This document shows, piece by piece, positions 18,094-31,835 of a stretch of 35,643 bases of DNA (the stretch's first letter is position 1; every line of letters begins with the position of its first letter). Source of the stretch: a virus. The stretch covers positions 1 to 35,643 of IMG/VR virus record IMGVR_UViG_3300021185_002042. One strand, given 5' to 3'. Both the position numbers and the translations under genes were made by a program. The notes beneath the pieces are model-generated. The model had not been told where the DNA came from, ran no database searches, and was given only the letters and a program-made list of their open reading frames with translations.

Positions 18094-18182
18094 AATATCT
18101 GAAGCGAGCAATCCACCTGGTACTCTTTCTTTGGAAATGTGGAAAGGAGGTAATCCGTGGCTATTCTAACAGAAAAACCTAA
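18090..18182 (+). CDS. Short basic peptide overlapping nuclease start (possible)
   Basis: A 30-residue reading frame (MKYLKRAIHLVLFLWKCGKE, then VIRGYSNRKT), coupled to the DnaA-like stop by ATGA and preceded by TTAGG. It overlaps the nuclease gene by 26 bases, and that gene's strong AAGGAGG site lies inside it. Its main effect may be to carry ribosomes to the nuclease start. Function unknown; it could be non-functional. Confidence 0.35.
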   Translation: MKYLKRAIHLVLFLWKCGKEVIRGYSNRKT

Positions 18183-18975
18183 GCGTGGCGGAGGTGGGCA
18201 TTGGTACACCCGAGAGGGTAAGGCCAAGCATACTATGCCTCGAGCGAAGGGAGACGGCGAACGGAATACCACTCTTCGAGATGCTAAGAAGCATGGGCTA
18301 TTTCCATCCGTGACAACTCTTCTTGGCCTGTTTGCCAAGCCGGGGTTGGAGCGATGGAAACAGGACCAGTTACTTCGTATAGCATTTGATAATCCGGCGA
18401 AGCTTGACGAAAGTTACGAAGGATATGCAGACCGATGCCTTGTTCAGCACGAAAAGCCTGTTGAAGAAGCGGCAAGCTTTGGGACGAAAGTTCACGATGC
18501 GATTGAAGCATACTTTACCGGTCAGCATATACCCGATGAACTATTAGAGTATATCCAACCCGCCCTTGATTGGAAACAGGAGCATGGCCTTAACTTCATC
18601 GAGTTTGAGAAGATGCTGGTTAATACGAATCATGGGTTCGCTGGTACTGTAGATATTGTCGGACAGGGATCGGAAGGGGCTAAGTTTATATTAGACTGGA
18701 AGACTCGTAAGACGAAGAAAGGGGTCAAGGTAACATCCTACGACTTCCAAATCCATCAGATAGCCGCCTATGCCGCAACCTATTGGGGCGAAGAGGCGGT
18801 GTTGGGGCATAGCGTCCACGGAGCTAACTGCTACATCAGTTCGACTGAGCCAGGAAGGTTCGAGGTGATTAAATATTCCCCCGAAGACCTCGCCAAAGCA
18901 TGGGTCGATTTCACCGCCCTCTGTCAGCTTTGGCGGAGTCTTAAAAACTACGATCCTAGAAGTCATGGAGAATAA
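18157..18975 (+). CDS. RecB/Cas4-like PD-(D/E)XK nuclease
   Basis: A 272-residue protein starting at GTG six bases after a strong AAGGAGG. The nuclease core is clear: GTKVHDAIEAYF (H113), FEKMLVN, HGFAGTVDIVG (D166), ILDWKTRKTKK (D180, K182), and QIHQIAAYAATYW, the QxxxY motif. This is the arrangement of RecB-type exonuclease domains used for recombination or end processing. There is no helicase domain, no Cys cluster of the Cas4 iron-sulphur type and no recombinase partner gene such as RecT that I can see. It probably trims DNA ends or degrades host DNA. Confidence 0.82.
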   Translation: MAILTEKPKRGGGGHWYTREGKAKHTMPRAKGDGERNTTLRDAKKHGLFPSVTTLLGLFAKPGLERWKQDQLLRIAFDNPAKLDESYEGYADRCLVQHEKPVEEAASFGTKVHDAIEAYFTGQHIPDELLEYIQPALDWKQEHGLNFIEFEKMLVNTNHGFAGTVDIVGQGSEGAKFILDWKTRKTKKGVKVTSYDFQIHQIAAYAATYWGEEAVLGHSVHGANCYISSTEPGRFEVIKYSPEDLAKAWVDFTALCQLWRSLKNYDPRSHGE

Positions 18976-19126
18976 ATATTGGCTATTAGAACCTCGGGAC
19001 AGCTTCCTAGATGTCAATCAGGATGACATCGATGAGATGAGGGAGTTAGCCGGTCTTGAGCCTGATGCCATGACTTTGGCAAAGGCCAAGCGGGAAGAGG
19101 AGGAGTGCGAAGATGCCGAGGTTTAA
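18965..19126 (+). CDS. Small acidic protein, unknown
   Basis: A 53-residue, strongly acidic helical protein (MENKYWLLEPRDSFLDVNQD, ending REEEECEDAEV). It overlaps the nuclease end by 11 bases and the RHH gene by 14, so it is embedded in a chain of coupled genes, which supports it being translated. The acidic composition would suit a nucleic-acid mimic or inhibitor, but nothing specific shows this. Confidence 0.55.
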   Translation: MENKYWLLEPRDSFLDVNQDDIDEMRELAGLEPDAMTLAKAKREEEECEDAEV

Positions 19127-19325
19127 ATCGAAGGAGTGGGGCATGGGGGAGAAGATAGACCAGGCTAGTGTATTTATCGCCATGCCCGCTCGAATAAAGG
19201 AAGTCCTTTATCGGGTAACTCAGTCGGAATCGATTTCGATGAGCCGCTATACATTAAACCTAATTTTGGACGATATCCGAAAGAAGGACAAAGAAATAAA
19301 TCGATGGCTCAATTCACAGAATTAG
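19113..19325 (+). CDS. Ribbon-helix-helix-like DNA-binding protein
   Basis: A 70-residue protein. The segment QASVFIAMPARIKEVLYRVT followed by QSESISMSRYTLNLILDDIR fits the RHH/Arc-MetJ pattern: a short beta strand, helix, Ser-containing turn and second helix. Such proteins are usually dimeric repressors. It overlaps both neighbours. A target site cannot be named; the inverted repeats in the intergenic regions are candidates. Confidence 0.55.
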   Translation: MPRFKSKEWGMGEKIDQASVFIAMPARIKEVLYRVTQSESISMSRYTLNLILDDIRKKDKEINRWLNSQN

Positions 19326-19504
19326 ATTTCGGAATCAATTTAGCGAAGGAAGTCGCTGAAGGATACCAACGATTTTGGGATAAAAATAAACTGACTATCA
19401 TTCACGAGAATGGGCGGGTTCGGATTGTGCGGACGGATGTCCCGCGAACCCGCCCATCGGCTGAATTTGATTATGGTCGGTATAAAAAAAGGAAGGGAAT
19501 TTAG
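19304..19504 (+). CDS. Unknown small protein upstream of methyltransferase
   Basis: A 66-residue protein starting MAQFTELDFGINLAKEVAEG with a basic C-terminus (FDYGRYKKRKGI). It overlaps the RHH gene by 22 bases and is followed at once by TAGATG of the methyltransferase. A predicted helix then strands (KLTIIHENGRVRIVRTDVPR). No family is recognised. It might be a small regulator or partner of the methyltransferase by position only. Confidence 0.55.
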   Translation: MAQFTELDFGINLAKEVAEGYQRFWDKNKLTIIHENGRVRIVRTDVPRTRPSAEFDYGRYKKRKGI

Positions 19505-20998
19505 ATGGCAAAGTTTATTAGTTTATTCGCTGGGGTCGGTGGATTCGATCTCGGCATGGAAAAAGCGGGGCATGAATGTGTTGCCCAAGTGGAATGGGAT
19601 AAGAATGCGGCGGGTGTATTAAAGCATCGTTGGCCGAATGTTCCCCTGTTCTGCGATGTATCAAAAGTGTCGGCGGATGATCTGCCCGATGCGGATTTTA
19701 TAACATACGGATTTCCATGCCAAGATTTGAGCGTGGCCGGTTTAAGAGAGGGATTAGATGGAAAACGATCAGGATTATTCTATGAAGCAACTAGACTTAT
19801 TCGGGAACTGCGAACCCGAGGATGCGGGCTACGCTTTGCCGTGGCAGAAAATGTTGCCGGGCTGTTCAGTGCAAATGATGGTGTCGCACTTGCAAGGTGC
19901 ATCCGAGAGCTACTCGACAGCGGGGCTTGTGAAACAGGATGGAGGTTACTCGACAGCCAGTATTTCGGTGTGGCCCAAAGACGGAAGCGCGTGTTCATTG
20001 TCTCAGATTTTGGAGGCGAATCCGTTGACGAAATACTCGCTATCACCGAGAGCCTGCCAGGGCATCCTGCGCCGAGCAGAGAAGCGGGGAAAGGAACTGC
20101 CGGAGATGCTACAAAAGGCGTTGGAGAGGGTGGCAAGTGCGACTGCGATCCAAACGGAACAGCAGGAACACTCCTTGCAAGAGACTACAAAGGATTAGGA
20201 AACCGAGACTTAGAGACGGGTAGAGGTTTAGCATTACAAGCCCAATCCACAGGAAGTGATCCTAACCTAATGGCCACCCTATGTGCGAAGGATAATGAAA
20301 AGGTAGGATCGAACCAATGGGTGAAGGAGGGTAAGGCGATTATCGAAGGCGTAGATTGGTACAACAATGCAGTTACCGGTGATATAAATCATACCCTTAA
20401 AATAGGTGGAGATGTACCTGGTGTAATTCAGCAAGAAGGCATCGCATTTGAACCTAGAAGTGCAGATGGTGAACCTAGAATAACAGGTGATATTAAAGAG
20501 GTTGCCAGCCCTACCTTGAACTGCATGGGCGGAGGGCAGCGTGAACCTTCAGTCGTCTCATGGAACGGAGACACAACCCCCAAGGCTTCCGAGGATGTAT
20601 CGGTAACTCTGCGTAGTCAGCAAGGCGGGGAAGGCGTGGGGGTGGCATTTACCGCATCCGACCGCTCAAACAAGGCGGCATGGGAGGGTGATATTAGTGG
20701 GACGATAAATTGTCAGATGAACTCGGAGTCGAGCAATCTGCAAATGGGAGTCCGAGAAAACCTAACCGTCCGCCGACTCACTCCAATCGAATGCGAACGC
20801 CTACAGGGATTCCCCGATAATTGGACATCGGAAAAGATGGAACTGATCCTTGAGGGGAACGAGTGGAAGGCTACCGGCAAGGTGGTCAAACAGGCAGATG
20901 GTCCACGATATAAGCAGATGGGAAATGCAGTCACCGTTAATGTGGCTGAGTGGATAGGGAAACAGATTGGAAAGGTATTAAATGAAAACACAATATAA
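19505..20998 (+). CDS. DNA cytosine-5 methyltransferase
   Basis: A 497-residue C5-methyltransferase. Motif I is SLFAGVGGFDLG (about 6-17), motif IV YGFPCQDLS with catalytic C72, motif VI AENV (114-117), motif VIII QRRKRVFIV (158-166), and motif X QMGNAVTV (471-478). The segment between VIII and the end is long and holds at least four related units (GTAGTLLARDYKG, PNLMATLCAKDNE, EVASPTLNCMGGGQ, DVSVTLRSQQGGEG, DISGTINCQMN), an expanded target-recognition region. It would protect phage DNA from host restriction. No matching restriction enzyme is adjacent, so it is an orphan. A second reading frame lies inside it in the +1 frame. Confidence 0.93.
   Translation: MAKFISLFAGVGGFDLGMEKAGHECVAQVEWDKNAAGVLKHRWPNVPLFCDVSKVSADDLPDADFITYGFPCQDLSVAGLREGLDGKRSGLFYEATRLIRELRTRGCGLRFAVAENVAGLFSANDGVALARCIRELLDSGACETGWRLLDSQYFGVAQRRKRVFIVSDFGGESVDEILAITESLPGHPAPSREAGKGTAGDATKGVGEGGKCDCDPNGTAGTLLARDYKGLGNRDLETGRGLALQAQSTGSDPNLMATLCAKDNEKVGSNQWVKEGKAIIEGVDWYNNAVTGDINHTLKIGGDVPGVIQQEGIAFEPRSADGEPRITGDIKEVASPTLNCMGGGQREPSVVSWNGDTTPKASEDVSVTLRSQQGGEGVGVAFTASDRSNKAAWEGDISGTINCQMNSESSNLQMGVRENLTVRRLTPIECERLQGFPDNWTSEKMELILEGNEWKATGKVVKQADGPRYKQMGNAVTVNVAEWIGKQIGKVLNENTI
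19758..20198 (+). CDS. Overprinted protein inside the methyltransferase gene
   Basis: A 146-residue open frame, +1 relative to the methyltransferase, with an ATG preceded by AGAGAGGG at good spacing. The product does not look random: WPKDGSACSLSQILE, then YSLSPRACQGILRRAEKRGK and ELPEMLQKALERVA. I recall this LSP.AC.GILRRAEKRGK.LP pattern from small phage proteins encoded beside or inside phage cytosine methyltransferase genes. The same DNA in the main frame gives ESLPGHPAPSREAGK, a peptide also familiar from such enzymes. The C-terminal part is helical and basic; function is unknown. It could be a partner or regulator of the enzyme. Recall of the family was not checked against a database. 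Confidence 0.6.
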   Translation: MENDQDYSMKQLDLFGNCEPEDAGYALPWQKMLPGCSVQMMVSHLQGASESYSTAGLVKQDGGYSTASISVWPKDGSACSLSQILEANPLTKYSLSPRACQGILRRAEKRGKELPEMLQKALERVASATAIQTEQQEHSLQETTKD

Positions 20999-21194
20999 AA
21001 TGGGACGGGGATTACCTCGAGGCGAGAAGGTAGTCGTAAAAGTGGGAAGCCGCCAAGCGGATGTAATCCTAGATACCGATAAAATGAATTGGCGGGTCAA
21101 GCTGGATACCCCCGACCTTCCCGAACTGGAATATCCGACTCTTGAGAATGCGGTAATGTCCGCAGAAACAATTTTAAAGGAGGATCGGAATTGA
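20982..21194 (+). CDS. Small protein before DNA polymerase, unknown
   Basis: A 70-residue protein (MKTQYKMGRGLPRGEKVVVK), with predicted beta strands (VVKVGSRQADVILD, WRVKLDTPDL) and a final helix (TLENAVMSAETILKED). It overlaps the methyltransferase end by 17 bases and the polymerase start by four. An AAAGGAGG near its end serves the polymerase. No family recognised. Confidence 0.6.
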   Translation: MKTQYKMGRGLPRGEKVVVKVGSRQADVILDTDKMNWRVKLDTPDLPELEYPTLENAVMSAETILKEDRN

Positions 21195-22945
21195 TCGCCC
21201 TCGATGTTGAAACCATTTGGTCAAAGCAGAACAGCGTGGCAACGCTGGGACTCGATCGCTATGTAAAGCACCCCGACTTTCGGGTAACTATAGTTTCTTT
21301 GGTATCGGATGACGGATTTGAATGGGTTGGAGATCCAAGGGATTTACCGGTGGACCGCTTAAACGGCCAATCGATCTGCGCACACAATGCCGAGTTTGAT
21401 TCGGTCTGCTGTCGAATGGCAATGGCGAGGGGACAGATGCCACAGTTTACTCCGAAGGAATGGATTTGTACGGCGGATATGGCAAGCTGGCATCAGTTGC
21501 CGCGGTCATTGGCGGGCTGTCATAAGGAATTATTTGGCGAAGAACTTAATAAGGATGCCCGCAATGAGATGAGCGGACTTCGACCCGAAGAGATCCTCGG
21601 AAATGAATCTTTTAAGCAGTATGCATTGGGCGATAGCCGAGCGTGTATCCGCATTTATAATGAACTAAAAACCTCCTTCCCCGAAAAGGAATTTCTATTG
21701 TCCGCATTTACCCGAAGGACGGCAAGCCGAGGCATGGCAATCGATCAAAATCTATGCCAGCAGTCTATTAATAAGACCGAGGCAATAATGGCCGAGGTCG
21801 AAACCTTTCTGCCTTGGGTAGGACAAGGTGGAGGTGAACCCACTTCGACTGTTGCTATGGCCGCCTATTTAAAGATGCAGAATGTAGAACCTCCTAAATC
21901 GACTCAGGAGGGTGATTCGGAATTACTTTTATGGAAGGCTAGGAATCCGCAGTACGCTCCGATCCTTGAAGCGATGACAAGGTGGAGGAAAGCAAATAAA
22001 GCGAGGCAGACATATATCAGTATGATCTTACGAGTCCGCCCCGACCATCGAGTTTCAACCCGATTAAAATATTGCGGTGCGCCGCATACCGGTCGCTGGA
22101 GTGGTGCGGGTGGGCTGAACTTCCAAGGCATTCCTCGGGATGAGGTGGAAGGTACATCGGCAAAGAAATGTCTGACACCTGGTAAGGGACGAGTGATCGT
22201 CTCTGCGGATCTCTCGCAAATCGAGCCGCGCGTCTTAGCGTACTTGTGCGGGGACTTTGATTTCTTAGGTTTGGTCAGAGGCGGGATCGATCTTTACGAG
22301 GCACATGGCCGAGCAACTGGGCTTTACACGGAAGACGAGCCAATGAAGGACTTAGCCCCCGAACTTCGCCACTTATGTAAAGCCCGTGTTCTTGGTTTAG
22401 GATATGGATGCGGTCCGAAGAAATTCGGTCAAGTGGCACAGGCCTTAACCGGTGGGAAATTAAATATGACCGATTCTGAGTCCCGTAAACAGGTCAAAGA
22501 TTTCCGCAATCAGAATCCAAAGATTGTCGAACTATGGAAGAAGTGCGAGGACCACATTCGTGAGGAGGCAAGGCAGACTCCTGAATGTGCAACCATGATC
22601 TGTAAATCAGGGAAGCCAATCCGATATTTCGATGTGAAGGATGATGGCCGAGAGTTGACTGGTCAGAAGGTCAGAGGACAGGGGCGGATGAAGCTGTATG
22701 GCGGATTACTTTTAGAGAACCTTGTTCAAGCAACAGCGAGAGAGCTGATGGCAGATTCACTCCTCAAGATTGAGGCGGCTGGACTCCCCGTTGTCCTTCA
22801 TGTCCACGATTCCGTAACTGTTGAAGTTGCCGAATCGGAGGGACAGGCGGCACTTGATTTAATGATCAAACTATTAACCGAAGAACCTCTCTATATGCCA
22901 GGGCTACCCTTGGCGGCAGAGGGGGAAATTAAAAACCACTACTAA
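21191..22945 (+). CDS. Family A DNA polymerase with 3'-5' exonuclease
   Basis: A 584-residue replicative polymerase starting at TTG, seven bases after GGAGG. Exonuclease motifs: IALDVET (D5, E7), AHNAEFD (N66, D70), QYALGDSRAC (Y144, D148). Polymerase motifs: A VSADLSQIEPRVLAYL (D340), B RHLCKARVLGLGYG (R393, K397, Y405), C VVLHVHDSVTVEV (H539, D540). The residue matching E. coli Phe762 is Leu401. In motif C the usual HDE is HDS. No 5' nuclease domain. With the AEP primase and RepA-like ATPase encoded nearby it forms the replisome. Confidence 0.95.
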   Translation: MIALDVETIWSKQNSVATLGLDRYVKHPDFRVTIVSLVSDDGFEWVGDPRDLPVDRLNGQSICAHNAEFDSVCCRMAMARGQMPQFTPKEWICTADMASWHQLPRSLAGCHKELFGEELNKDARNEMSGLRPEEILGNESFKQYALGDSRACIRIYNELKTSFPEKEFLLSAFTRRTASRGMAIDQNLCQQSINKTEAIMAEVETFLPWVGQGGGEPTSTVAMAAYLKMQNVEPPKSTQEGDSELLLWKARNPQYAPILEAMTRWRKANKARQTYISMILRVRPDHRVSTRLKYCGAPHTGRWSGAGGLNFQGIPRDEVEGTSAKKCLTPGKGRVIVSADLSQIEPRVLAYLCGDFDFLGLVRGGIDLYEAHGRATGLYTEDEPMKDLAPELRHLCKARVLGLGYGCGPKKFGQVAQALTGGKLNMTDSESRKQVKDFRNQNPKIVELWKKCEDHIREEARQTPECATMICKSGKPIRYFDVKDDGRELTGQKVRGQGRMKLYGGLLLENLVQATARELMADSLLKIEAAGLPVVLHVHDSVTVEVAESEGQAALDLMIKLLTEEPLYMPGLPLAAEGEIKNHY

Positions 22946-22947
22946 AT

Positions 22948-23145
22948 ATGATAATCCAAATAAATGATAACCTCAGTCTAAACCCATTTCAGGTAACATC
23001 CGCCCAATATTTAAATGGGTCTTGGACAGTTAAGACTACAAGCGGAGAGACTTTCCGATTAACCCCCAAAGAGTACATGAAACTCGATGATTATGGATTC
23101 GATGTGAAATTACTCATCGACAGGCTTTCTGACGGAAATTCTTAG
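22948..23145 (+). CDS. Small unknown protein after polymerase
   Basis: A 65-residue protein starting MIIQINDNLSLNPFQVTSAQ, two bases after the polymerase stop. Predicted short beta sheet (NGSWTVKTTSGETFRLTPKE) and an acidic helical end (DVKLLIDRLSDGNS). It looks like a compact beta-sandwich or barrel fragment with no known motif. Confidence 0.55.
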   Translation: MIIQINDNLSLNPFQVTSAQYLNGSWTVKTTSGETFRLTPKEYMKLDDYGFDVKLLIDRLSDGNS

Positions 23146-23162
23146 ATGATCGAAGGGACAGC

Positions 23163-23282
23163 ATGAACCTCCTCCGAATCATCGGCTTAATCGTATTATT
23201 CATTACCTCAGTCCTCGCCTTAGCCTACATCGTGGCCGCATTCGTACTTACAATAATAACATCACTATTCATCACTACATGA
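23163..23282 (+). CDS. 39-residue membrane protein
   Basis: The product MNLLRIIGLIVLFITSVLAL then AYIVAAFVLTIITSLFITT is almost wholly hydrophobic, long enough for one kinked or two short membrane helices. An AAGGGACAGC leader precedes the ATG, and the stop is coupled to the dNMP kinase start by ATGA. Early-block location argues against a simple late holin. It may act in superinfection exclusion or membrane takeover; this is a guess. Confidence 0.5.
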   Translation: MNLLRIIGLIVLFITSVLALAYIVAAFVLTIITSLFITT

Positions 23283-23785
23283 CTAATAAAATTATCGGCT
23301 TAACAGGCCCAAAGGCGGTAGGTAAATCGACCTATGCAAAATCAATCGAGGGAGCGGTAATTCTCTCCTTCGCCACTCCCATTAAAGAGATGCTCAAGGT
23401 GATATTGCCGGGGGAAAAGTATCTGCATTTTAAGGAAGAACCAATACCCAACTTTCCCGACAATATTAATACCAGGCAGTTATTACAGAGCCTCGGGACG
23501 GAATGGGGAAGGGAAGGGGTTTACCCTAATATATGGATCGATCTAGCTTATAAGGCGGCTCTACCCTACATCGGGAATAAAACTATTGTTTTCGATGATA
23601 TCCGCTTCCCCAACGAAGCTTGGGCGATTCGTAGATGGGGCAATACACATGAGGTACTGTCAGAAATAGTTCACATCGCTCGCAAAGGCTATGAGCCTGA
23701 CCCGAATGATAACCATGTCTCAGAGGCGGGACTTCCAAAGGGAATGATAGATAGGTGGGTTAGTGTCGATGGGGACGGACGATAG
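23279..23785 (+). CDS. Deoxynucleoside monophosphate kinase-like P-loop protein
   Basis: A 168-residue P-loop kinase: Walker A GLTGPKAVGKST (about 7-18), a nucleotide-substrate region with FATPIKEMLKVILPG, then SLGTEWGREGVYPNIWIDLA and TIVFDDIRFPNEAWAI. These motifs match phage dNMP kinases (T4 gp1-like), which phosphorylate dNMPs for phage DNA synthesis. Its neighbours, polymerase and primase, fit. The C-terminal end (GMIDRWVSVDGDGR) overlaps the next gene by about 17 bases. Confidence 0.82.
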   Translation: MTNKIIGLTGPKAVGKSTYAKSIEGAVILSFATPIKEMLKVILPGEKYLHFKEEPIPNFPDNINTRQLLQSLGTEWGREGVYPNIWIDLAYKAALPYIGNKTIVFDDIRFPNEAWAIRRWGNTHEVLSEIVHIARKGYEPDPNDNHVSEAGLPKGMIDRWVSVDGDGR

Positions 23786-23990
23786 CCAAATAGCCAAGCA
23801 GATGGCAACCGATGCCAAGCTGAAAAATATGCTCCTCAAGATTCCCGAGGATCATCGGGGTTTTACTCAGTCCGAACTGGCCGCGAAAACAGGGATACCT
23901 CGCCGTACTTTAAGGCGGATTGAAGACGAGGCGATAGGCAAGCTGACTGATTATATCCAGCAGTTTATAGAGGGTGAGGGTTCCGAGTAA
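23769..23990 (+). CDS. Small sigma-70 region 4-like HTH protein (first copy)
   Basis: About 73 residues from this ATG (a GTG six bases earlier would add two). The C-terminal half, FTQSELAAKTGIPRRTLRRI followed by EDEAIGKL, has the helix-turn-helix and RxIExxAxxKL pattern of sigma-70 region 4, where the second helix reads the -35 element. The rest of a sigma factor is missing. It could bind RNA polymerase flap or DNA and redirect host transcription, or be an ordinary small HTH repressor. A second protein of the same type lies before the portal gene. Confidence 0.6.
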   Translation: MGTDDSQIAKQMATDAKLKNMLLKIPEDHRGFTQSELAAKTGIPRRTLRRIEDEAIGKLTDYIQQFIEGEGSE

Positions 23991-24845
23991 ATGGCAATTC
24001 TATCAGCAGACATGGCGGGGTTCTTCGACAGACTCCCGCAAGGAGACTTTGGCCATCATACCTTTATTGCCCGCCTTACCCTCCGTGCCGCAATGCATCA
24101 ATCCGACTTCGAGAAGGCTCACGATTACTGCATCGAGGTAGCAAAGGAATTTACCCGCCGACCACTCCAGCCGAACGAGATCCGCAATGCATTAACCGGT
24201 GCGTATCAAATCCTTTCAGGTGAGAAGATTATCAGTCCCACCAAGAGAGTATCAATTGATACCGGAATCTCAACAAACGCAAAAGGTAAGCCCGAGGATC
24301 TTGAAATGCTACAACTCCGCTCCTCCGCCATTCCTTTGAATGCGATGGAGGCGGTTTCCAAGCTATTCCGCCCCGACCAATGGATAAACATCCAAGCGGA
24401 TAAATTTAATACTATGATCAAGTCGGCGGGCGATTGGGCGATCAGTCAAGGGGTAGGGCAGATGGAATTTATTTCGTACAATCCATTTAAGCACATCGGT
24501 CCTCGGGTAAAAGAGAATGCCGGTGAGCGGATGTATCTAGTACATGAGATCGATGACCCGACTTGGACGAAGGCTGATCAGATTGGTCCAGCACTTACCC
24601 TCGAATCAATCTGCCCCCTTAAGATGATAGTCGATAGTGGCGGTCAGTCCTTACATTGCTGGTACGATTGGATACCTGGTAAGGCCGAGCAGTTTAAACA
24701 TATGTCAATGAAGCTCGGAGCCGATCCATCGATTTATAATTCACCCCTCGGATTAGTCCGACTGCCTTGGGGGACGAGAAAACCAAAGACCGAGAAGGGC
24801 GAGAGATTTTCTGCCCAGCAACCTATTCTTTTTTGGCGGGAATGA
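23991..24845 (+). CDS. AEP-type DNA primase-like protein
   Basis: A 284-residue protein. The second half matches the archaeo-eukaryotic primase core: YLVHEIDDPT (E186, D188; motif I, usually DxD or DxE), IVDSGGQSLHCWYDW (H222; motif II, the sGGkSlHaWy pattern), and LGLVRLPWGTRKPK (257-263; near motif III). The first 80 residues are helical (FIARLTLRAAMHQSDFEKAH). No helicase is fused and no zinc-finger Cys cluster is obvious. The RepA-like ATPase gene follows after a short gene, so primase and helicase are separate. The name is confident at superfamily level only. Confidence 0.7.
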   Translation: MAILSADMAGFFDRLPQGDFGHHTFIARLTLRAAMHQSDFEKAHDYCIEVAKEFTRRPLQPNEIRNALTGAYQILSGEKIISPTKRVSIDTGISTNAKGKPEDLEMLQLRSSAIPLNAMEAVSKLFRPDQWINIQADKFNTMIKSAGDWAISQGVGQMEFISYNPFKHIGPRVKENAGERMYLVHEIDDPTWTKADQIGPALTLESICPLKMIVDSGGQSLHCWYDWIPGKAEQFKHMSMKLGADPSIYNSPLGLVRLPWGTRKPKTEKGERFSAQQPILFWRE

Positions 24846-25036
24846 TTAATACTCTTCTTAAAGCAACCATCGTCAGACGGTTTATTAAGCTCGGGATTTC
24901 ACCCGTTAAAGCAATGAAAATGGCCGACCGGTTAGCCGAGGGAGATGCTATTGTGCTTGTCAGAAATCACATAAATTTACAGCCCCAAATAATTTTAACA
25001 CTAATCAAAAATAACATAAAAGATAATGAGACCTGA
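24842..25036 (+). CDS. Small basic protein between primase and helicase
   Basis: A 64-residue protein (MINTLLKATIVRRFIKLGIS), whose ATG overlaps the primase stop (ATGA) and whose end overlaps the helicase start by 11 bases. The middle, SPVKAMKMADRLAEGDAIVL, suggests a small helical DNA-binding fold. The frame stays open further upstream inside the primase gene, but the coupled ATG with GGCGGG before it is the natural start. A helicase loader or primase accessory is possible by position. Confidence 0.55.
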   Translation: MINTLLKATIVRRFIKLGISPVKAMKMADRLAEGDAIVLVRNHINLQPQIILTLIKNNIKDNET

Positions 25037-26183
25037 AACCGACCCATACTACAAAGCACAACTTAAAGCGGTAGAGCTGGAATATATGCTCGATAGCCCG
25101 ACTGTCACCAATATGCCCAACCGATCAATCGAGGTGAGCAATGACGACCCAAAGCCGCTTCCCGAGATTATGTCATTCGGCCAATGCATGGACTTTGCCA
25201 CTAATCCGAAGAATGAACTTGAAGAGATAATTGAGGGCGTACTGCACGAAGGTTGTAAGATGATTATATCGGGGTCCAGTAAGGCGGGTAAGACTTGGAG
25301 TCTCATTAACTTGGCCATCGCCGCATCCAATGGGATGCCGTGGCTGGGGATGCCGGTTAAGCAGTCGAAGGTTCTATACTTAGACTTCGAGCTAAAGAAG
25401 TTCTTTGGTACGGATCGGATAAAGCGGGTAGCCAAGGCAACCTTTAACGGAGAGATTAAGCCCAACCATCACTTGGACTATTGGCCGCTCCGAGGTCACC
25501 GGGCAGAACTCCTCGACCTCCTCACAAAGATCCGAGCGGAAAGGCGGGAATATGATCTGATCATCCTCGATCCCTACTACAAATTAGCCACAGGAATAGA
25601 TGAGAACGATGCTAAGGCAGTAGGCGAAATCGTAAACCTAATCGAGGATTTCTCCGAGGAGACCGGTGCCGCCATAGTATTTGCCCACCACTTCTCCAAA
25701 GGGAATAAATCAGAGACCGATCATATCGACCGAGCATCCGGCTCAGGGGTATTTGCCCGCGATCCTGACGCTATCCTCACCCTTACCTCTCACGAGGAAG
25801 AAGAACACCTAGTCCTCGAGGCAACTAATAGAAACTGTCCATTCTCACCGCCCAAAGTCCTCGAATTCTCCGCAGAAACCTTTCCACTCTTCATACATCG
25901 ACCCGACCTAGAAGCTAAATTCAGAAAGCCAGGGCAGATATCCACCATTCAAAAGAAGATTAATGAGGGCTTATGCGAGAAGTTTCTAGAGCTGTTGAAA
26001 GATAAGCCGATTGCTGGAAGAAACGAGATAATGGAATTACTTCAAGCTCAAACCAATAATAATATCGATGGTCATGTTTTTAAGAAAATATTATCGATGA
26101 CTAAGGATCAAATTGAGGTCGAAAAAGGTGGTCCGAATAACAAAACTATCTACAGTTTGAAGCTAAAACTGAAAGGAGAATAA
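25026..26183 (+). CDS. RepA/RecA-fold hexameric helicase-like ATPase
   Basis: A 385-residue protein with a RecA-fold core like plasmid RepA (AAA_25): Walker A MIISGSSKAGKTW (GSSKAGKT, 83-90), catalytic Glu near VLYLDFELKK (E122), Walker B YDLIILDPYYKL (D182), and sensor stretch AAIVFAHHFSKG (219-226). Residues about 310-385 look like a winged-helix tail (GRNEIMELLQAQTNNNIDGH). This fold unwinds DNA at forks. It is the last gene of the replication block, directly before a region rich in inverted repeats that may be the origin. Confidence 0.85.
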   Translation: MRPETDPYYKAQLKAVELEYMLDSPTVTNMPNRSIEVSNDDPKPLPEIMSFGQCMDFATNPKNELEEIIEGVLHEGCKMIISGSSKAGKTWSLINLAIAASNGMPWLGMPVKQSKVLYLDFELKKFFGTDRIKRVAKATFNGEIKPNHHLDYWPLRGHRAELLDLLTKIRAERREYDLIILDPYYKLATGIDENDAKAVGEIVNLIEDFSEETGAAIVFAHHFSKGNKSETDHIDRASGSGVFARDPDAILTLTSHEEEEHLVLEATNRNCPFSPPKVLEFSAETFPLFIHRPDLEAKFRKPGQISTIQKKINEGLCEKFLELLKDKPIAGRNEIMELLQAQTNNNIDGHVFKKILSMTKDQIEVEKGGPNNKTIYSLKLKLKGE

Positions 26184-26201
26184 GTTAACTTTATTGTCGG
26201 A

Positions 26202-26246
26202 AGAGTGGTAGTGCGACCCTATATAGTATATATGCACTACTACTCT
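26202..26246. repeat. 13-bp inverted repeat with AT-rich loop
   Basis: AGAGTGGTAGTGC and GCACTACTACTCT pair with one G-T position around a 19-base loop GACCCTATATAGTATATAT, itself nearly palindromic (TATATAGTATATA). No U-run follows, so it is not a typical terminator for the helicase operon. A cruciform or melting element of an origin, or a protein-binding site, fits better. Confidence 0.55.
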
Positions 26247-26259
26247 CTAAATAAAAAAC

Positions 26260-26387
26260 AGGCTGTTAAGTAGTTAACCTTCGCACTAATGCTTTGGCCC
26301 GTAGCCGGCCCAAAAGCTAAAGCTTACGCACCAGTGCGCCAAACCACCTGAAGGCGGCCCGTACCAGGTTAACTACTCCGCCAGCCT
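26260..26387. other. Long-range inverted repeat region; candidate origin or structured RNA
   Basis: Outer arms AGGCTG (26260-26265) and CAGCCT (26382-26387), then perfect 12-bp arms AGTAGTTAACCT (26269-26280) and AGGTTAACTACT (26366-26377), enclose 85 bases. Inside, CGCACT pairs with AGTGCG (26282-26287 with 26333-26338), within which GCTTTGG can pair with CCAAAAGC (26291-26317); the palindrome AAGCTAAAGCTT lies next to it. GTTAAC occurs three times in and beside this region. There is no reading frame worth calling. It could fold as RNA or act as DNA sites for the RepA-like, DnaA-like or RHH proteins. Confidence 0.5.
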
Positions 26388-26423
26388 ACAAGCTCGACCG
26401 ATTAAAAGATTAAAACCGAAAGA

Positions 26424-26609
26424 ATGAATACACTCGTTAAACAGATTAACCGCTCGAACAGATCAATCCTGTCAAAGAGGTATAAATATATCCATCAGCC
26501 AATCGATAAGACTGGTAGCCAATCAATCACAGCAAATCGGGCATTCAGAGGAATGGCGGGATTGGCGGCCTTATACCCTATCGTGGTAGATTGGATGTAT
26601 CGAAGTTAA
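26424..26609 (+). CDS. Small basic protein, unknown
   Basis: A 61-residue protein, basic in its first half (MNTLVKQINRSNRSILSKRY) with a hydrophobic C-terminal segment (FRGMAGLAALYPIVVDWMYR) that may be a membrane or amphipathic helix. The ATG has a GAAAG leader only. It stands alone between two structured non-coding stretches; being isolated, its reality is less certain than that of the packed genes. Confidence 0.4.
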   Translation: MNTLVKQINRSNRSILSKRYKYIHQPIDKTGSQSITANRAFRGMAGLAALYPIVVDWMYRS

Positions 26610-26653
26610 AAGACAGCCCTGTGTGCCTTCTAGGCGATTATTCGGGCTATCTT
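26610..26653. repeat. Nested hairpin downstream of the small gene
   Basis: AAGACAGCCC pairs with GGGCTATCTT (9 of 10) and encloses a smaller perfect hairpin GCCT-TCT-AGGC. It begins right at the end of the preceding stop codon. Without a U-run it is not a canonical terminator, but it may stop or stabilise the transcript. The remaining sequence up to the minus-strand gene (26654-26790) is AT-rich with no gene. Confidence 0.35.
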
Positions 26654-26744
26654 GAGATTATATGTCGGTAGTACTTCACTCCAATATCTTAAATATTACC
26701 TTCAAGGAAATAAAAAAGCATTCGATTATTAAATCTCGTTCGAG

Positions 26745-26782
26745 GAAAAAGAAGAATAAAGTCAGGAGAGCATACCACTCTC
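26745..26782 (-). terminator. Weak candidate terminator of minus-strand gene
   Basis: Read on the minus strand, GAGAG-7 bases-CTCTC lies about ten bases after the TAA of the small-terminase-like gene and is followed by CTGACTTTATTCTTCTTTTT. The stem is only 5 bp, so the call is tentative, but its place between converging genes is right for a terminator. Confidence 0.3.
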
Positions 26783-26790
26783 GTTGATGG

Positions 26791-27300
26791 TTATGTATCG
26801 GTGACTTCTGCCTCGATGATTTTTTCATCCTTCAGATTGGCAAGCTCGGCTCGGATCTCATCGAGGCTGAGTGATTTCTTTACTTCGATGACTTGAGTCG
26901 GCTCACCTTCGTACTGGCGATGCTTGTCGATTAAGATGCCTGTGGCGATTGGTAGGACTCCTGATGGGATTTCATCGTCCTGGAGTTTAGTTATCAGACT
27001 TTCAACCGCAAGCTGAGTCGCTGTTCCGATTAACCCTCGGAGATGCTTTTTCGTATCTTTCAGCGTTTCCTGTTCCCTAGACTTAACGACTGCAACTGTA
27101 TGGGCTGATATCTTACACTGCTTTGTAATACTCGTTATCGTGGAACCCTCTGCTAGCATCTGTACACATCTAGCATAATCATTAGGTCTCTTATCAAAAA
27201 GCTTCTGCCCAGTCCAAACAGCGGGACAGGCTTCCTCGACAACTAAATTAGCCGGAAGGTTCTCGGCTTTCTGATATGCTCTCGGTCTTTTTGTAGGCAT
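26791..27300 (-). CDS. Small terminase subunit-like HTH protein
   Basis: A 169-residue protein, the only gene on the minus strand. I start it at MPTKRPRAYQKAEN; an upstream ATG would add 20 hydrophobic residues that look like untranslated leader. RCVQMLAEGSTITSITKQCK followed by ISAHTVAVVKSRE is an HTH, then a long helical stretch (KKHLRGLIGTATQLAVESLI) and LPIATGILIDKHRQYEGEPT, the GI..DK...L pattern I associate with small-terminase-like phage HTH proteins. It would recognise the packaging site. It is divergent from the large terminase, with about 300 bases of structured DNA between them. An ordinary HTH regulator is the alternative. Confidence 0.6.
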   Translation of the reverse strand: MPTKRPRAYQKAENLPANLVVEEACPAVWTGQKLFDKRPNDYARCVQMLAEGSTITSITKQCKISAHTVAVVKSREQETLKDTKKHLRGLIGTATQLAVESLITKLQDDEIPSGVLPIATGILIDKHRQYEGEPTQVIEVKKSLSLDEIRAELANLKDEKIIEAEVTDT

Positions 27301-27322
27301 GATTTTAATCGGTGTGGCATAA

Positions 27323-27360
27323 TGATAATGAATTATCAATAAGGATATTGGCAAGAACAA
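27323..27360 (-). promoter_or_regulatory. Minus-strand promoter with overlapping palindromic operator
   Basis: On the minus strand TTGTTC, 17 bases and GATAAT (5 of 6) form a good sigma70-type promoter whose start would fall about 25 bases before the ATG of the small-terminase-like gene. The palindrome TGATAA-TGAA-TTATCA (27323-27338) covers the -10 box and start site, an arrangement expected of a repressor site. Confidence 0.5.
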
Positions 27361-27472
27361 TTAGACATAATGCTTATTGCACGAAGTTAGTTTATTTATT
27401 AAGTACATTGATTATCAGCGACTTACGCAAATGCTTTTGGATCGTGCAAATTATGTAAAAGTATTAGGCAAT

Positions 27473-27527
27473 GGTAGGAGGGGGGGAGGGGGGTCGGATT
27501 TCGCGGCCCGCCGATCACCGCGACCGA
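27473..27527. other. G-rich run and GC hairpin before large terminase
   Basis: GGTAGG is followed by runs of seven and six G separated by one A, giving a purine-only stretch able to form a two-tetrad G-quadruplex. Right after it, TCGG-ATT-TCGCGG pairs with CCGCGA-CCGA around an 11-base loop. This is the only such run I noticed in the window. It sits in the 295-bp gap between the terminase subunit genes. A packaging or cleavage recognition site is a reasonable guess. The rest of the gap is AT-rich; short frames in it lack coding character. Confidence 0.4.
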
Positions 27528-27547
27528 TTGTAGCCCATAAAAAAATT

Positions 27548-27578
27548 TTAACTAATTGCGGCCAATCGTACCGATAAT
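27548..27578 (+). promoter_or_regulatory. Weak candidate promoter for terminase/structural operon
   Basis: TTAACT and GATAAT (5 of 6) are separated by 19 bases, longer than ideal. Transcription would begin about 10-12 bases before the large terminase ATG, and no Shine-Dalgarno is visible there, so the message may be nearly leaderless. A promoter is needed somewhere in this gap because the upstream gene is on the other strand. Confidence 0.3.
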
Positions 27579-27595
27579 CTGTTATCATTAAGCCA

Positions 27596-29197
27596 ATGCC
27601 TCTCACATGGACACCGCACCCCGCTCTCCCGCCTCTGACAAAATCGGAGATGCTGTCCATGTCCCCCGAGTCAATCCTCGCATATTATGAGACTAGAGAG
27701 GAAGCAATCGCCAAAGAGAAAGACGATCCATACCGGCACGGGTTTGAACTGGATACTTGGAAGTTAGCGGATAAGGAACTGAAGACTCATGCCGAGATAT
27801 TGGTCATGGGCGGGAATAGAGCTGGAAAGAGTTTTTGGGCGGCCAAGCGGGTAGTTCAATGCCTCGTAGAAAACCCCGGCACGATCATATGGTGCTTAAC
27901 GGAAACATCGGCAAATTCTGTGCAATTCCAGCAGAAGCTCGTTTACGATGCTCTCCCAAAAGAGTTTAAGTCGTTGGGTAGAGGTAAGATAGGATATGTA
28001 ATGTGGTCGCTTAAAAATGGCTTTACCTCGCAAAAGTTCACTTTGCCGAACGGAAGTCAGTGTATTTTCCGTAACTGGAGTCAGGACATTTCGACAATCG
28101 AAGGAGGAGAAATCGGCTCACCGCAAGAACCGGTAAACGGCACACATAACATCGGATATTGGGCAGATGAACTCGTACCTATGTCGTGGGTCAACACGCT
28201 TAGATTTAGGACAGTTACACGCAATTCCAAGGGAATTATCAGCTTCACCGCCGTTGACGGATGGAACAGCGTAGTCAAATCGATGCTAACGGGAGCCCGC
28301 ACCATAGAATCAACGAAAGCGGATCTCCTAAATGGCGAAGAAGTCCCCCTCGTTCAGCAGCCCATCCGCAAAGCCAGTTCTGTGGTTTATTTCCACACAG
28401 CGGCGAACCCCTTTGGCGGCTGGGAGGCAATGAAGAATCAGTTAGAGGGAGAGAAGAGAGAGACTATCCTTTGCCGGGCTTATGGAGTGCCTGTGAGGCA
28501 GTCTAGGGCTGTGTTCCCTTCGCTTGGGGACAAAAACATCGTACAGGCTGAAAAACTCCCCGATTTCTCGGAAGCCAATTGGGTCATGTCGATTGACCCA
28601 GCGGGAGCAAAGCCCTGGACAATGGTATTATTTGCAATCGATCCTCATGGAGTCGCTTGGGCGGTCAAAGAGTTTCCTGACTTCGACACTTGGGGCGGTT
28701 GGATTGATCTGACAAAGGATAAGCTGTCTGCTGGCGAGGCCGCCCAACCGAACGGGTACGGTCTCAAGGATTATGCCGATGAGATTCGTAGGATGGAAAA
28801 AATTTGCGGGGATAGTGAGGTCATCCGCATAATCGACCCCCGTTTAGGGGCGGCAAGCTATCAAAAGTCGGAAGGATCTTCTAACATCATCGATGATCTA
28901 TCGGATGAAGATATCATCGTTCAACCGGCAGAAGCGTTAGACATCGAAACAGGACTCCAGGCGATCAATAATTTATTAGCATGGGACCGCGATAAACCGA
29001 TGGATTTGGATAATAAGCCCAAACTTATGTTTTCGGATGAATGTCAAAATCTCATAAGTTGTCTGCAAGCATATGTCCCTGGTGATTTAAAAGCCGCTCC
29101 AAAAGATTTTGTAGACTGCACCCGTTATTTTTGCATCGGGAACTTTGAGTATTTCGGCAAGGAGGAGTTAATTTCAACAGGCGGAGGAGGATATTAA
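27596..29197 (+). CDS. terL: Terminase large subunit
   Basis: A 533-residue packaging motor. ATPase part: Walker A MGGNRAGKSF (GGNRAGKS, 72-79) and Walker B IGYWADEL with D191-E192. Nuclease part (RNase H-like): D334 in VMSIDPAGAKPW, D414 in IRIIDPRLG, and D507 in KDFVDCTRYF. The N-terminal segment is Pro-rich. It cuts the concatemer and drives DNA through the portal encoded three genes downstream. The small-terminase-like protein lies on the opposite strand. Both active sites look intact. Confidence 0.92.
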   Translation: MPLTWTPHPALPPLTKSEMLSMSPESILAYYETREEAIAKEKDDPYRHGFELDTWKLADKELKTHAEILVMGGNRAGKSFWAAKRVVQCLVENPGTIIWCLTETSANSVQFQQKLVYDALPKEFKSLGRGKIGYVMWSLKNGFTSQKFTLPNGSQCIFRNWSQDISTIEGGEIGSPQEPVNGTHNIGYWADELVPMSWVNTLRFRTVTRNSKGIISFTAVDGWNSVVKSMLTGARTIESTKADLLNGEEVPLVQQPIRKASSVVYFHTAANPFGGWEAMKNQLEGEKRETILCRAYGVPVRQSRAVFPSLGDKNIVQAEKLPDFSEANWVMSIDPAGAKPWTMVLFAIDPHGVAWAVKEFPDFDTWGGWIDLTKDKLSAGEAAQPNGYGLKDYADEIRRMEKICGDSEVIRIIDPRLGAASYQKSEGSSNIIDDLSDEDIIVQPAEALDIETGLQAINNLLAWDRDKPMDLDNKPKLMFSDECQNLISCLQAYVPGDLKAAPKDFVDCTRYFCIGNFEYFGKEELISTGGGGY

Positions 29198-29199
29198 TT

Positions 29200-29556
29200 A
29201 TGGGAGTAACTAAAAAATGGAGTCCGATGAAGCGGGACCAGGTGGTAATTTTGCGAAAGACTGGGTTGAGTTGGCCGAAGGTCAGCCAATCGGTGGGTAT
29301 TCCCCGCTCCAGTTGTCAGAAAATTTGGGCGGAGGACTCAAACGGCGATATGGAACTGCCTAAACCACCGGCAAAACAGATAGAAAAGGCACGGGTTCTC
29401 AAGCTCGTCCCAAATCCCCGCCTTATGCTCATCCATTTCGAGGATCGGGAAGGGGTGGCAAGATGCGTAAAGCGTCCCGAGCAGAATCACCCTGTTAAAT
29501 CGGAAGTATATGTCAAACGAGTCGAAGGAGACGATGATTTGTATCGAATCGCATGA
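29200..29556 (+). CDS. HTH protein in the packaging operon
   Basis: A 118-residue protein. The N-terminal half, SPMKRDQVVILRKTGLSWPK followed by VSQSVGIPRSSCQKIW, is a resolvase/transposase-like HTH. The C-terminal half (ARVLKLVPNPRLMLIHFEDR) is beta-rich with positive charges. It starts two bases after the terminase stop with GGAGGATATTAATT before it. It could be a second packaging-site binding protein or a late regulator. Confidence 0.6.
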   Translation: MGVTKKWSPMKRDQVVILRKTGLSWPKVSQSVGIPRSSCQKIWAEDSNGDMELPKPPAKQIEKARVLKLVPNPRLMLIHFEDREGVARCVKRPEQNHPVKSEVYVKRVEGDDDLYRIA

Positions 29557-29782
29557 CCAACAGGAGAAGCGAATTGATGCCATGCTACAGGAAATGGTGG
29601 TGGAGGAGGGCTTGTCGGCATTTGAGGCGGGGCGTGAGCCAAACAATTTCACGCTGAAGGAAATTAGCGAATTTATCGGAGTGCCAATCGTGGCAGTACA
29701 CAGGGTCGAAAAAGAGGCTTTGAAAAAACTTAAAAAAATAATGTTAGAATTGGAGATCAAAAATGGAAATACAGGAATTTAG
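29534..29782 (+). CDS. Small sigma-70 region 4-like HTH protein (second copy)
   Basis: An 82-residue protein. I choose this ATG because AAGGAG lies four bases upstream; an earlier in-frame ATG has no ribosome site. After an acidic helical N-terminus, NFTLKEISEFIGVPIVAVHR then VEKEALKKLKKIM matches sigma-70 region 4 (helix-turn-helix, R-V-E-K-A-L-K-K-L). It overlaps the HTH gene and the portal gene by about 20 bases each. Being in the late operon, it could tune late transcription. It is distinct in sequence from the early copy. Confidence 0.6.
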   Translation: MICIESHDQQEKRIDAMLQEMVVEEGLSAFEAGREPNNFTLKEISEFIGVPIVAVHRVEKEALKKLKKIMLELEIKNGNTGI

Positions 29783-31835
29783 CGAAAAAGGCCCGGATGT
29801 TGATGCCATCAAAAAGGAGTTCGATTCAGCGAAAGCGGATCTCTCGTTTTGGATGGATAAAGCGGAACAGGCGAGGGAGTGTCGATTTAACGAGTGGGCG
29901 GGCAAAGATGAGTCAGGCAAGAAGAACGGACCGGAGGCATTTCCTTGGGACGGGGCCAGCGATCTCGAAGCAAATCTGATTAATCCGCTAATTGATGGGG
30001 ATGTGGCCTTACTTTCGCAATCTCTGTCACAGGCCAACCTCGTAGCCGCTCCCGTGGAGAGTGGAGACATTGGCAGTGCGAAGATGGTAAGCGAATTTTT
30101 AAAGTGGCGGATGAACTCAATGACTGAACTCCCGAGGGAGGCGGCCATCGGAGCAAACTATTTATTGCAAAACGGTATTACTTTTTTTGGCACTTATTGG
30201 AAGCGTGAAACCACTCGAGTATTTAAAGATATATCACTCGAAGAGATTGCCCAAATGTCCCCCGAGCTGGCAATGGCGATCCAAGACCCTGAGATGAAGG
30301 AGGGAGTTGAAGAGATGCTATTCCCGCTATTCCCAAATCTGAAAAAGCGAAGAGTCAGAAAGATGATTAACGAACTTCGTAATAAAGGAGTATCGAAAGT
30401 CCCGACTGAAAAGGCGGTAGTCAATCGTCCGGCAATCAAGGCTTATGAATTAGGTCGGGAAATAATCATCGACTCAAATGTAATTGATTTAGAGTCTGCT
30501 CGGTCAATTCATTGCATCCACTACTATAGCCCCGAGGCTCTCATGCAGAAGGTCAACGAGGGATGGGATAAGAAGTGGATCGAAGAGGTACTGGAGAACA
30601 GTAAAGGCTTTTATGCGAATGAAAGCTACAGTTCTGACTTAATGTCCTACGATAGTGGCAACTTTTACGGCACACAAGATTATGAAGGTATGGTCCGAGT
30701 AATTACAACCTACCGCAAGGAACTTGATGAAGATGATGTACCGATCTGCACAATTACTTGCTGGGCAGATGAATCGGAAGGGCATGGTTTTCACAGCCCG
30801 ATGGAATACGATGAGGGCAGATATCCATTCGTCTGCATCACCCGCGAAAACCTCAACCATCGCCTACTCGATTCCCGAGGTTACCCCGAGCTTTTAAAGA
30901 GTTATCAGGTTGCGGCGAAGACCGAGATGGATGCGAGGCGGGACCGCGCATCGATGAGTACCTTACCACCCGTGGAACATTTGGCTGGCCGCCGTCCCGA
31001 GAGGATAGGTCCAGGGGCAACCTTGGCAGTCCGCCGAAGAGGAGAAGTTGGTTTCATGGAAATCCCAAGGTATTCGCAAGCCTCGATGGAAGTCGAAATG
31101 CAAATCCGCCAACTCGCCAACAAGATAACCGGTCGAGCAACCTCCGCCGAAGACGCAGTTGAGGCAAACAGCATTCGCCAGCACCTCGTTAATCAGTGGC
31201 TCAATGGATTTAAACAGGTTCTTAATCGGGTATGGTGCTTGGACAGAACTTATGGTGGTCCACAAATTTGGTTTCGGGTCACGAATAACGAGCAAGGCGC
31301 TCAGTTGATGCTCGATGAGACTGCGGAGGTTTACGATTTTAATATCACATGGAACAGCATGAACCAGGACGAGGAGAAGGTTCTTCAGAAACTTGATACA
31401 GTTGGTAAATTAATGTCAACTTATGACCGGCAAGGAGTTGGTCGATATGATGTATACCTTCGTAAAGTTTTAGAGGCAATCGATCCAAATCTAGCCGGTC
31501 AATTAATCGCCCCAGTTGAAGAAGCAACAGACAAGGAGATTCAGGAAACTTCCGCAGACATTGCCAAAATTGCATCGGGGCAAGTGGTCAATGTACCGCA
31601 ACAAGGTGTAAATTCTCAACTTCGTCTACAAAAACTTCGAGAGTTCCTTGAAGGTACTCCCGAAATACCGGCACAGGATGTTCAGCAAAGAATGCAAGAG
31701 GACGAAAACTTCGCGAAGAGACTTCAGACATATGCTGGACAGCTCGAAATGATGCAAGCCCAACAAAGAAACGCAATAATTGGCCAGCTGGGTACTGCTC
31801 CCGGCAATGTGCCAGGTACATCAGTAGCCGCTTAA
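29763..31835 (+). CDS. Portal protein
   Basis: A 690-residue protein downstream of the large terminase. Diagnostic stretches are FPWDGASDLEANLINPLIDG near the N-terminus, ARECRFNEWAG, WKRETTRVFKD, and in the second half RPERIGPGATLAVRR and the helical GRATSAEDAVEANSIRQHLV. A Gln-rich coiled-coil C-terminus (YAGQLEMMQAQQRNAIIGQL) resembles portal barrel helices. Length is in the range of P22-type portals (about 725). It forms the ring through which DNA passes and on which the tail assembles. GGAG eight bases before the ATG supports the start. Confidence 0.82.
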   Translation: MEIQEFSEKGPDVDAIKKEFDSAKADLSFWMDKAEQARECRFNEWAGKDESGKKNGPEAFPWDGASDLEANLINPLIDGDVALLSQSLSQANLVAAPVESGDIGSAKMVSEFLKWRMNSMTELPREAAIGANYLLQNGITFFGTYWKRETTRVFKDISLEEIAQMSPELAMAIQDPEMKEGVEEMLFPLFPNLKKRRVRKMINELRNKGVSKVPTEKAVVNRPAIKAYELGREIIIDSNVIDLESARSIHCIHYYSPEALMQKVNEGWDKKWIEEVLENSKGFYANESYSSDLMSYDSGNFYGTQDYEGMVRVITTYRKELDEDDVPICTITCWADESEGHGFHSPMEYDEGRYPFVCITRENLNHRLLDSRGYPELLKSYQVAAKTEMDARRDRASMSTLPPVEHLAGRRPERIGPGATLAVRRRGEVGFMEIPRYSQASMEVEMQIRQLANKITGRATSAEDAVEANSIRQHLVNQWLNGFKQVLNRVWCLDRTYGGPQIWFRVTNNEQGAQLMLDETAEVYDFNITWNSMNQDEEKVLQKLDTVGKLMSTYDRQGVGRYDVYLRKVLEAIDPNLAGQLIAPVEEATDKEIQETSADIAKIASGQVVNVPQQGVNSQLRLQKLREFLEGTPEIPAQDVQQRMQEDENFAKRLQTYAGQLEMMQAQQRNAIIGQLGTAPGNVPGTSVAA

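Follow-up and report, generated by a model that had tools for sequence, protein, structure and literature searches.

A conserved, apparently protein-coding reading frame nested in the +1 frame of phage-type C5-cytosine methyltransferase genes

Can one stretch of a phage DNA methyltransferase gene encode a second protein in another reading frame? The question is raised by a 35,643-base virus record (IMGVR_UViG_3300021185_002042), taken over its whole length and referred to here as the window. An initial annotation made from the sequence alone had described a 146-codon open reading frame (ORF), with its own ATG and ribosome site, inside a C5-cytosine DNA methyltransferase (MTase) gene and in its +1 frame; this ORF is present, and the strongly patterned C-terminal part of its product was worded exactly (Table 1). 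Reports of long nested genes with evidence of selection on both frames are rare for dsDNA phages, and such genes are often dropped by gene callers.

The nested frame and its host gene

The host gene matches PF00145 in Pfam (E=1e-58) and phrog_116 in PHROG (E=1e-78), and HhaI and HaeIII are among its PDB relatives. It encodes a C5-cytosine MTase with the PF00145 catalytic domain and motifs I-X, laid out in a single frame as motifs I-VIII, a long variable region, and then motifs IX and X. The nested ORF lies wholly within this gene at an offset of 253 nt, which places it in the +1 frame. An in-frame TAG (19755-19757) immediately precedes its ATG with no gap, and both the start and the Shine-Dalgarno (SD)-like site are kept in close relatives. 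The conserved +1 domain begins opposite QRRKRVFIV, which we take to be motif VIII from established knowledge of C5-MTases. Motif IX lies outside the +1 product, which has ended well upstream of it.

Table 1. Features of the MTase locus in the window (positions are those of the window; MTase motifs are in frame 0)
Feature	Position	Strand	Remarks
C5-cytosine DNA methyltransferase, 497 aa	19505..20998	+	host gene; motifs I-X complete, frame 0
Nested ORF, 146 aa	19758..20198	+	+1 frame of MTase; ATG start, stop included
SD-like site AGAGAGGG (GAGAGGG)	19745..19752	+	5 nt upstream of ATG 19758
+1 product, N-terminal part (residues 1-78)	19758..19991	+	variable, predicted disordered, moderate +1 constraint
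+1 product, C-terminal domain (residues 79-126), CSLSQILE..KYSLSPRACQGILRRAEKRGKELPEMLQKALERV	19992..20135	+	conserved, predicted helical hairpin
MTase motif VIII (QRRKRVFIV; presumed)	19976..20002	+	opposite beginning of +1 domain
MTase motif IX RRLTPIECERLQGFP	20771..20815	+	nearly invariant alignment columns
Exonuclease	18157		neighbour of MTase
DNA polymerase	21191		neighbour of MTase
dNMP kinase	23279		neighbour of MTase
Primase/helicase	25026		neighbour of MTase
Terminase large subunit	27596		neighbour of MTase

The surroundings of the MTase (18157-31835) are an ordinary tailed-phage replication and packaging module. An antisense ORF of 118 codons (19780-20136, minus strand) covers the same segment as the nested ORF and is probably a by-product of constrained composition.

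With an alignment of 107 sequences, AlphaFold predicts a disordered N-terminal part of ~80 residues (pLDDT about 50), followed by a confident helical hairpin (pLDDT around or above 90 for residues ~91-130). The conserved domain is mildly basic (mean net charge +2.3), and L81, L85, L95, S96, A99, G102, I103, R106, L114, P115, and L118 are invariant or nearly so. No family of its own was found for the product in Pfam, NCBIfam, or PADLOC, and comparison with the PDB by sequence and by fold gave chance-level helical matches only; matches to sigma-domain and prion structures were set aside as common helical arrangements. When the 107 relatives were compared with Pfam, a DNA_methylase match was obtained for one, and none for the product of the window.

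Selection and start signals in the +1 frame

A long open frame may arise by chance in G+C-rich DNA. In 5000 synonymous codon shuffles, which keep the MTase protein and the codon usage fixed, the longest open +1 stretch averaged 61 codons, and one of at least 146 codons is improbable (P = 0.0006). Pooled over 67 loci, the openness of the +1 frame reaches p about 1e-32, while in single loci it is modestly unusual (median p 0.05). A chance ORF is ruled out by these shuffles together with the selection tests, and for the reality of the nested gene it is conservation rather than ORF length that is decisive.

Conservation was assessed on a first set of MTases retrieved by their frame-0 N-terminus alone, with no selection for the +1 frame. 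At fourfold-degenerate sites of the MTase frame, diversity starts from 0.69 on the 5' side of the ORF, drops to 0.59 and then 0.48 across the N-terminal half and reaches 0.32 over the C-terminal domain (C-domain), with a minimum of 0.08 at 20057-20080; 3' of the ORF it recovers to 0.64-0.66. The trough coincides exactly with the ORF, and the same pattern appears in a further comparison. Within the C-domain the usual order of codon positions is inverted, with the least variation at position 3 of the MTase codon and the most at position 1, as expected if position 1 of the MTase is the wobble base of the +1 frame.

Substitutions in 83 independent close pairs behave in the same way. Substitutions that leave the MTase unchanged and alter the +1 product drop fourfold, from 33.4 per 1000 weighted sites upstream to 8.4 in the C-domain, whereas those that alter the MTase and are silent in the +1 frame rise from 9.4 to 25.4, so that the usual bias is reversed. 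Omega is about 0.11 (+1) versus 0.32 (MTase) in the C-domain, and about 0.35 (+1) versus 0.19 (MTase) over the 50 codons upstream of the domain model, values that are approximate since the doubly synonymous denominator is small (10-52 changes per region). Judged from these substitution patterns, purifying selection acts on both frames, and the +1 frame is the more strongly constrained in its C-domain. The true dual coding proposed in the initial annotation is supported by both the fourfold diversity and the substitution classes, and selection measured with the overlap taken into account is purifying in each frame.

The start signals point in the same direction. Of 103 non-redundant loci, 50.5% have an ATG with an SD core no more than seven codons away from the preceding +1 stop, as against 5.7% of shuffled ones, an enrichment of about ninefold over synonymous shuffles (z = 20, which is not an exact probability since the shuffles ignore phylogeny). 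Such start signals would be compatible with translation of the +1 product. On these comparative grounds, a protein is encoded in the +1 frame of the phage-type C5-MTase gene, with start signals of its own; it would comprise ~130-160 aa and end in a conserved, predicted helical hairpin. The locus thus has the marks of an overprinted gene, namely a second ORF open beyond chance across homologues and purifying selection on both frames. The +1 ORF has a much narrower distribution than C5-MTases as a whole, which makes it the likely newcomer.

Distribution in phages and prophages

The +1 family was traced by scanning IMG/VR and GTDB genomes with the C-terminal motif, the fetched loci being the best-scoring ones and therefore a lower bound, and by tblastn. 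The 146-residue product matches 136 phage records, and the C-terminal consensus matches 149 phages and 535 plasmid records. Most plasmid matches are from Escherichia, and the majority of those listed are labelled as a Dam-family methyltransferase, as would be expected for P1-like prophages. When all fetched loci are counted, 469 of the 471 hits to the domain (415 of 417 distinct sequences) are in the +1 frame relative to an MTase ORF that overlaps them; the other two, L317 (Cellulosilyticum ruminicola) and L478, are displaced to another frame, probably by frameshifts, for which contig errors could account. No stand-alone +1 gene was found among the loci fetched from IMG/VR, phages, plasmids, and GTDB genomes. 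The initial annotation referred to similar proteins as separate hypothetical genes; as none of the 471 hits is a stand-alone copy, such database proteins are probably the same nested ORF.

Carriers infect, among others, Vibrio, Mycobacterium, Escherichia (P1, P7), Pseudomonas, Caulobacter, Sinorhizobium, Streptococcus, Ruminococcus, Akkermansia, and Pseudanabaena, and the family recurs in phages of Bacillota, Pseudomonadota, Actinomycetota, Verrucomicrobiota, and Cyanobacteriota. One contig, IMGVR_UViG_3300022929_000079, has two different copies of MTase plus nested ORF near its two ends (L002, L014). A second subfamily, e.g. in Lactococcus phage CHPC1175 (L491), has a divergent +1 ORF with a CSLSDILE..V..KYFLS core and without the ILRRA helix; synonymous constraint is also present there (set B).

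The association also holds when approached from the enzyme. Among the best-scoring 80 MTases fetched by the frame-0 N-terminus, 74 reach the region and all 74 carry the +1 domain, and in a second set retrieved by the MTase all 79 loci that span the region have it (78 in the +1 frame, 1 displaced), giving 152 in the +1 frame and 1 displaced over both sets; because each scan kept its 80 top-scoring hits, occasional losses in more remote relatives may escape. Frequent +1 stops in homologous genes, named at the outset as evidence that would speak against dual coding, are therefore not what these loci show. The +1 domain is absent from 22 of 30 C5-MTase loci sampled from 15 bacterial genomes, so that it marks a phage-type clade.

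Around the hits, the annotated regions that were fetched list the MTase, an unnamed CDS in its place, or nothing, and no annotation of the +1 ORF was found. This includes phage P1, one of the best-studied phages (AF234172), where an unannotated +1 ORF lies at 66728-67201 inside dmt (L051 2716-3189), with GGAG seven bases upstream of its ATG; the P1-like plasmid pFUJ80155-1 (L052) has a closely similar one. Because the ORF is present in P1, its function is directly testable. PHROG 16143 ('DNA methyltransferase', 139 positions) matches 52 of 107 family members (best E=3e-14), and gene callers have therefore probably already picked up the +1 frame in some phages. Its label appears to have been carried over from the overlapping MTase, and the library entry describes neither a function nor the overlap. 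No description of the nested family was found in the literature searched (subscription papers and protein nr lay outside the search), and looking for its sequence motif in papers likewise yielded no match.

An out-of-frame gene concealed within a phage DNA methylase has a precedent in the ShiLan domain, an HNH endonuclease hidden in actinophage methylases as a sporadic homing insertion in the third frame (PMC11855218). The nested ORF differs in lying in the +1 frame and in being constant in its MTase family. A homing element of the ShiLan type was rejected, since there is no HNH match and since presence in 74/74 and 79/79 relatives is not sporadic.

Relation to the methyltransferase and rival explanations

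Some relatives have the enzyme divided or joined differently. In six split MTases (L240, L245, L246, L255, L260, L298), the N-terminal ORF, which holds motifs I-VIII, stops within or at the +1 domain; the +1 ORF continues past this MTase stop, and motifs IX-X are in a separate downstream ORF. Conversely, the +1 domain shares one ORF with the C-terminal half of the MTase in L127, L420, and L594, and with motif IX in L288/L293, while motifs I-VIII stay in the frame-0 ORF; such fusions represent about four lineages. In the single case of L317, the N-terminal part of the MTase is in frame with the +1 domain. These splits and fusions rest on few contigs, and contig or frameshift errors could explain some of them.

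The nearest known kind of enzyme is M.EcoHK31I, a two-polypeptide C5-MTase whose large and small polypeptides are encoded by overlapping genes in different frames. The nested ORF likewise overlaps an MTase in an alternative frame, its product would be a second polypeptide tied to a C5-MTase, and by analogy it may work like the small subunit of that type. According to PMC3404938, the small polypeptide carries only motif IX, whereas the window MTase has its own motif IX and the +1 product lacks one; a motif IX on the +1 side is found only in relatives such as L288. The same paper describes M.AquI as having motifs I-VIII and IX-X on two polypeptides (PMC3404938). L245, L246, and L255 resemble that split, with the +1 ORF running across the junction, but the window MTase is unsplit and the +1 product is an extra polypeptide.

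In a further group of viral C5-MTases (L581, L583, L598, L609, L610, L613, L622, L626), a +1 ORF of ~230-490 codons overlaps almost the whole MTase and has an apparent motif IX (e.g. LNPxFVEWLMGFPxGWT), with I-VIII and X in the MTase frame. Double coding of this EcoHK31I-like sort is apparently widespread, and L581, L609, L610, and L613, among others, match the division reported in PMC3404938, with a motif-IX-like sequence in the +1 ORF and X in the MTase. Aligned by hhalign, the +1 family and these motif-IX-bearing ORFs give a probability of 44% (E=2e-4, 71 columns), a weak similarity that may come from the overlap of both with the same MTase motifs. The +1 domain with ILRRA..RGK.LP was not seen in the motif-IX-bearing ORFs inspected in this group.

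Taking the nested gene as real, we lean, with somewhat better than even confidence, towards a product that serves the MTase as a small accessory subunit or dedicated partner. The +1 product would be made together with the enzyme, from the MTase mRNA, by ribosomes that initiate inside the MTase coding region. Its hairpin may then bind at or close to the linker opposite which it is encoded, where the catalytic half of the MTase (motifs I-VIII) joins the target-recognition half, and aid assembly, stability, or activity; the product would be related to, or work like, the M.EcoHK31I-type small subunit, minus the catalytic motif IX. Among the loci examined that span the region, the two-way association of +1 domain and MTase is without exception, although constant co-occurrence is partly built in, as nested genes are not easily inherited separately. 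The persistence of the +1 ORF in natural splits and its fusions to MTase parts are suggestive of a co-translated partner, while the predicted hairpin and disordered N-terminus, with no informative fold match, would count against one. Of the two roles raised in the initial annotation, circumstantial evidence thus favours the enzyme partner, and nothing was found in favour of the antirestriction factor. The main rival, which we consider rather unlikely, is that a real gene arose in the MTase by overprinting and that its product has an independent phage function, such as host takeover, antirestriction, or regulation. Overprinting is an established route to new viral proteins (PMC8227390), the mildly basic hairpin is compatible with nucleic-acid binding, and there is no direct sign that the product binds the MTase. 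However, such a gene would be expected to disappear from some MTases or to turn up as a copy elsewhere, neither of which was seen, and the fusions to MTase parts point to the enzyme.

Two other explanations dispense with an independently initiated protein. Ribosomes may shift out of the MTase frame and produce a truncated MTase ending in the +1 domain, as the joined reading frame of L317 would suggest, and the fusions show that a joined product is tolerated. This is improbable, since L317 stands alone, start positions differ between lineages as expected for independent starts, and starts with SD cores right after the upstream +1 stop are strongly enriched. It is highly improbable that there is no second protein at all, the +1 conservation being a shadow of the MTase peptide or an RNA or DNA element. 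The N-terminal part of the +1 product does overlap conserved MTase motifs and owes some similarity to them, and the openness of single loci is modest; but the codon positions in the C-domain are ordered in the reverse of the way that a shadow would give, the signal has a three-base period set by the +1 frame, which would not suit an RNA element, and in split genes the +1 domain extends beyond the end of the MTase frame.

If the partner reading holds more broadly, the members of a very widespread clade of phage and prophage C5-MTases, P1 Dmt included, may be enzymes of two components, the second being an unrecognised subunit read from the +1 frame of the catalytic gene. Nested ORFs, M.EcoHK31I-like +1 ORFs with motif IX, and AquI-like splits could then be stages of one evolutionary continuum in which enzyme halves move between overlapping frames. 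Both parts of this proposal are put forward tentatively and with less than even confidence. In any case, the family is a rich natural source of data on how a single DNA sequence can encode two proteins: the conserved +1 domain faces a part of the enzyme, directly after motif VIII, that is under weak constraint, and parts of the enzyme can change frame. An annotated split MTase is also found in Mycobacterium phage Dylan (gp7/gp6; L490 1471-2422), where gp6, the second half, begins inside gp7 in the +1 frame with an overlap of about 69 codons.
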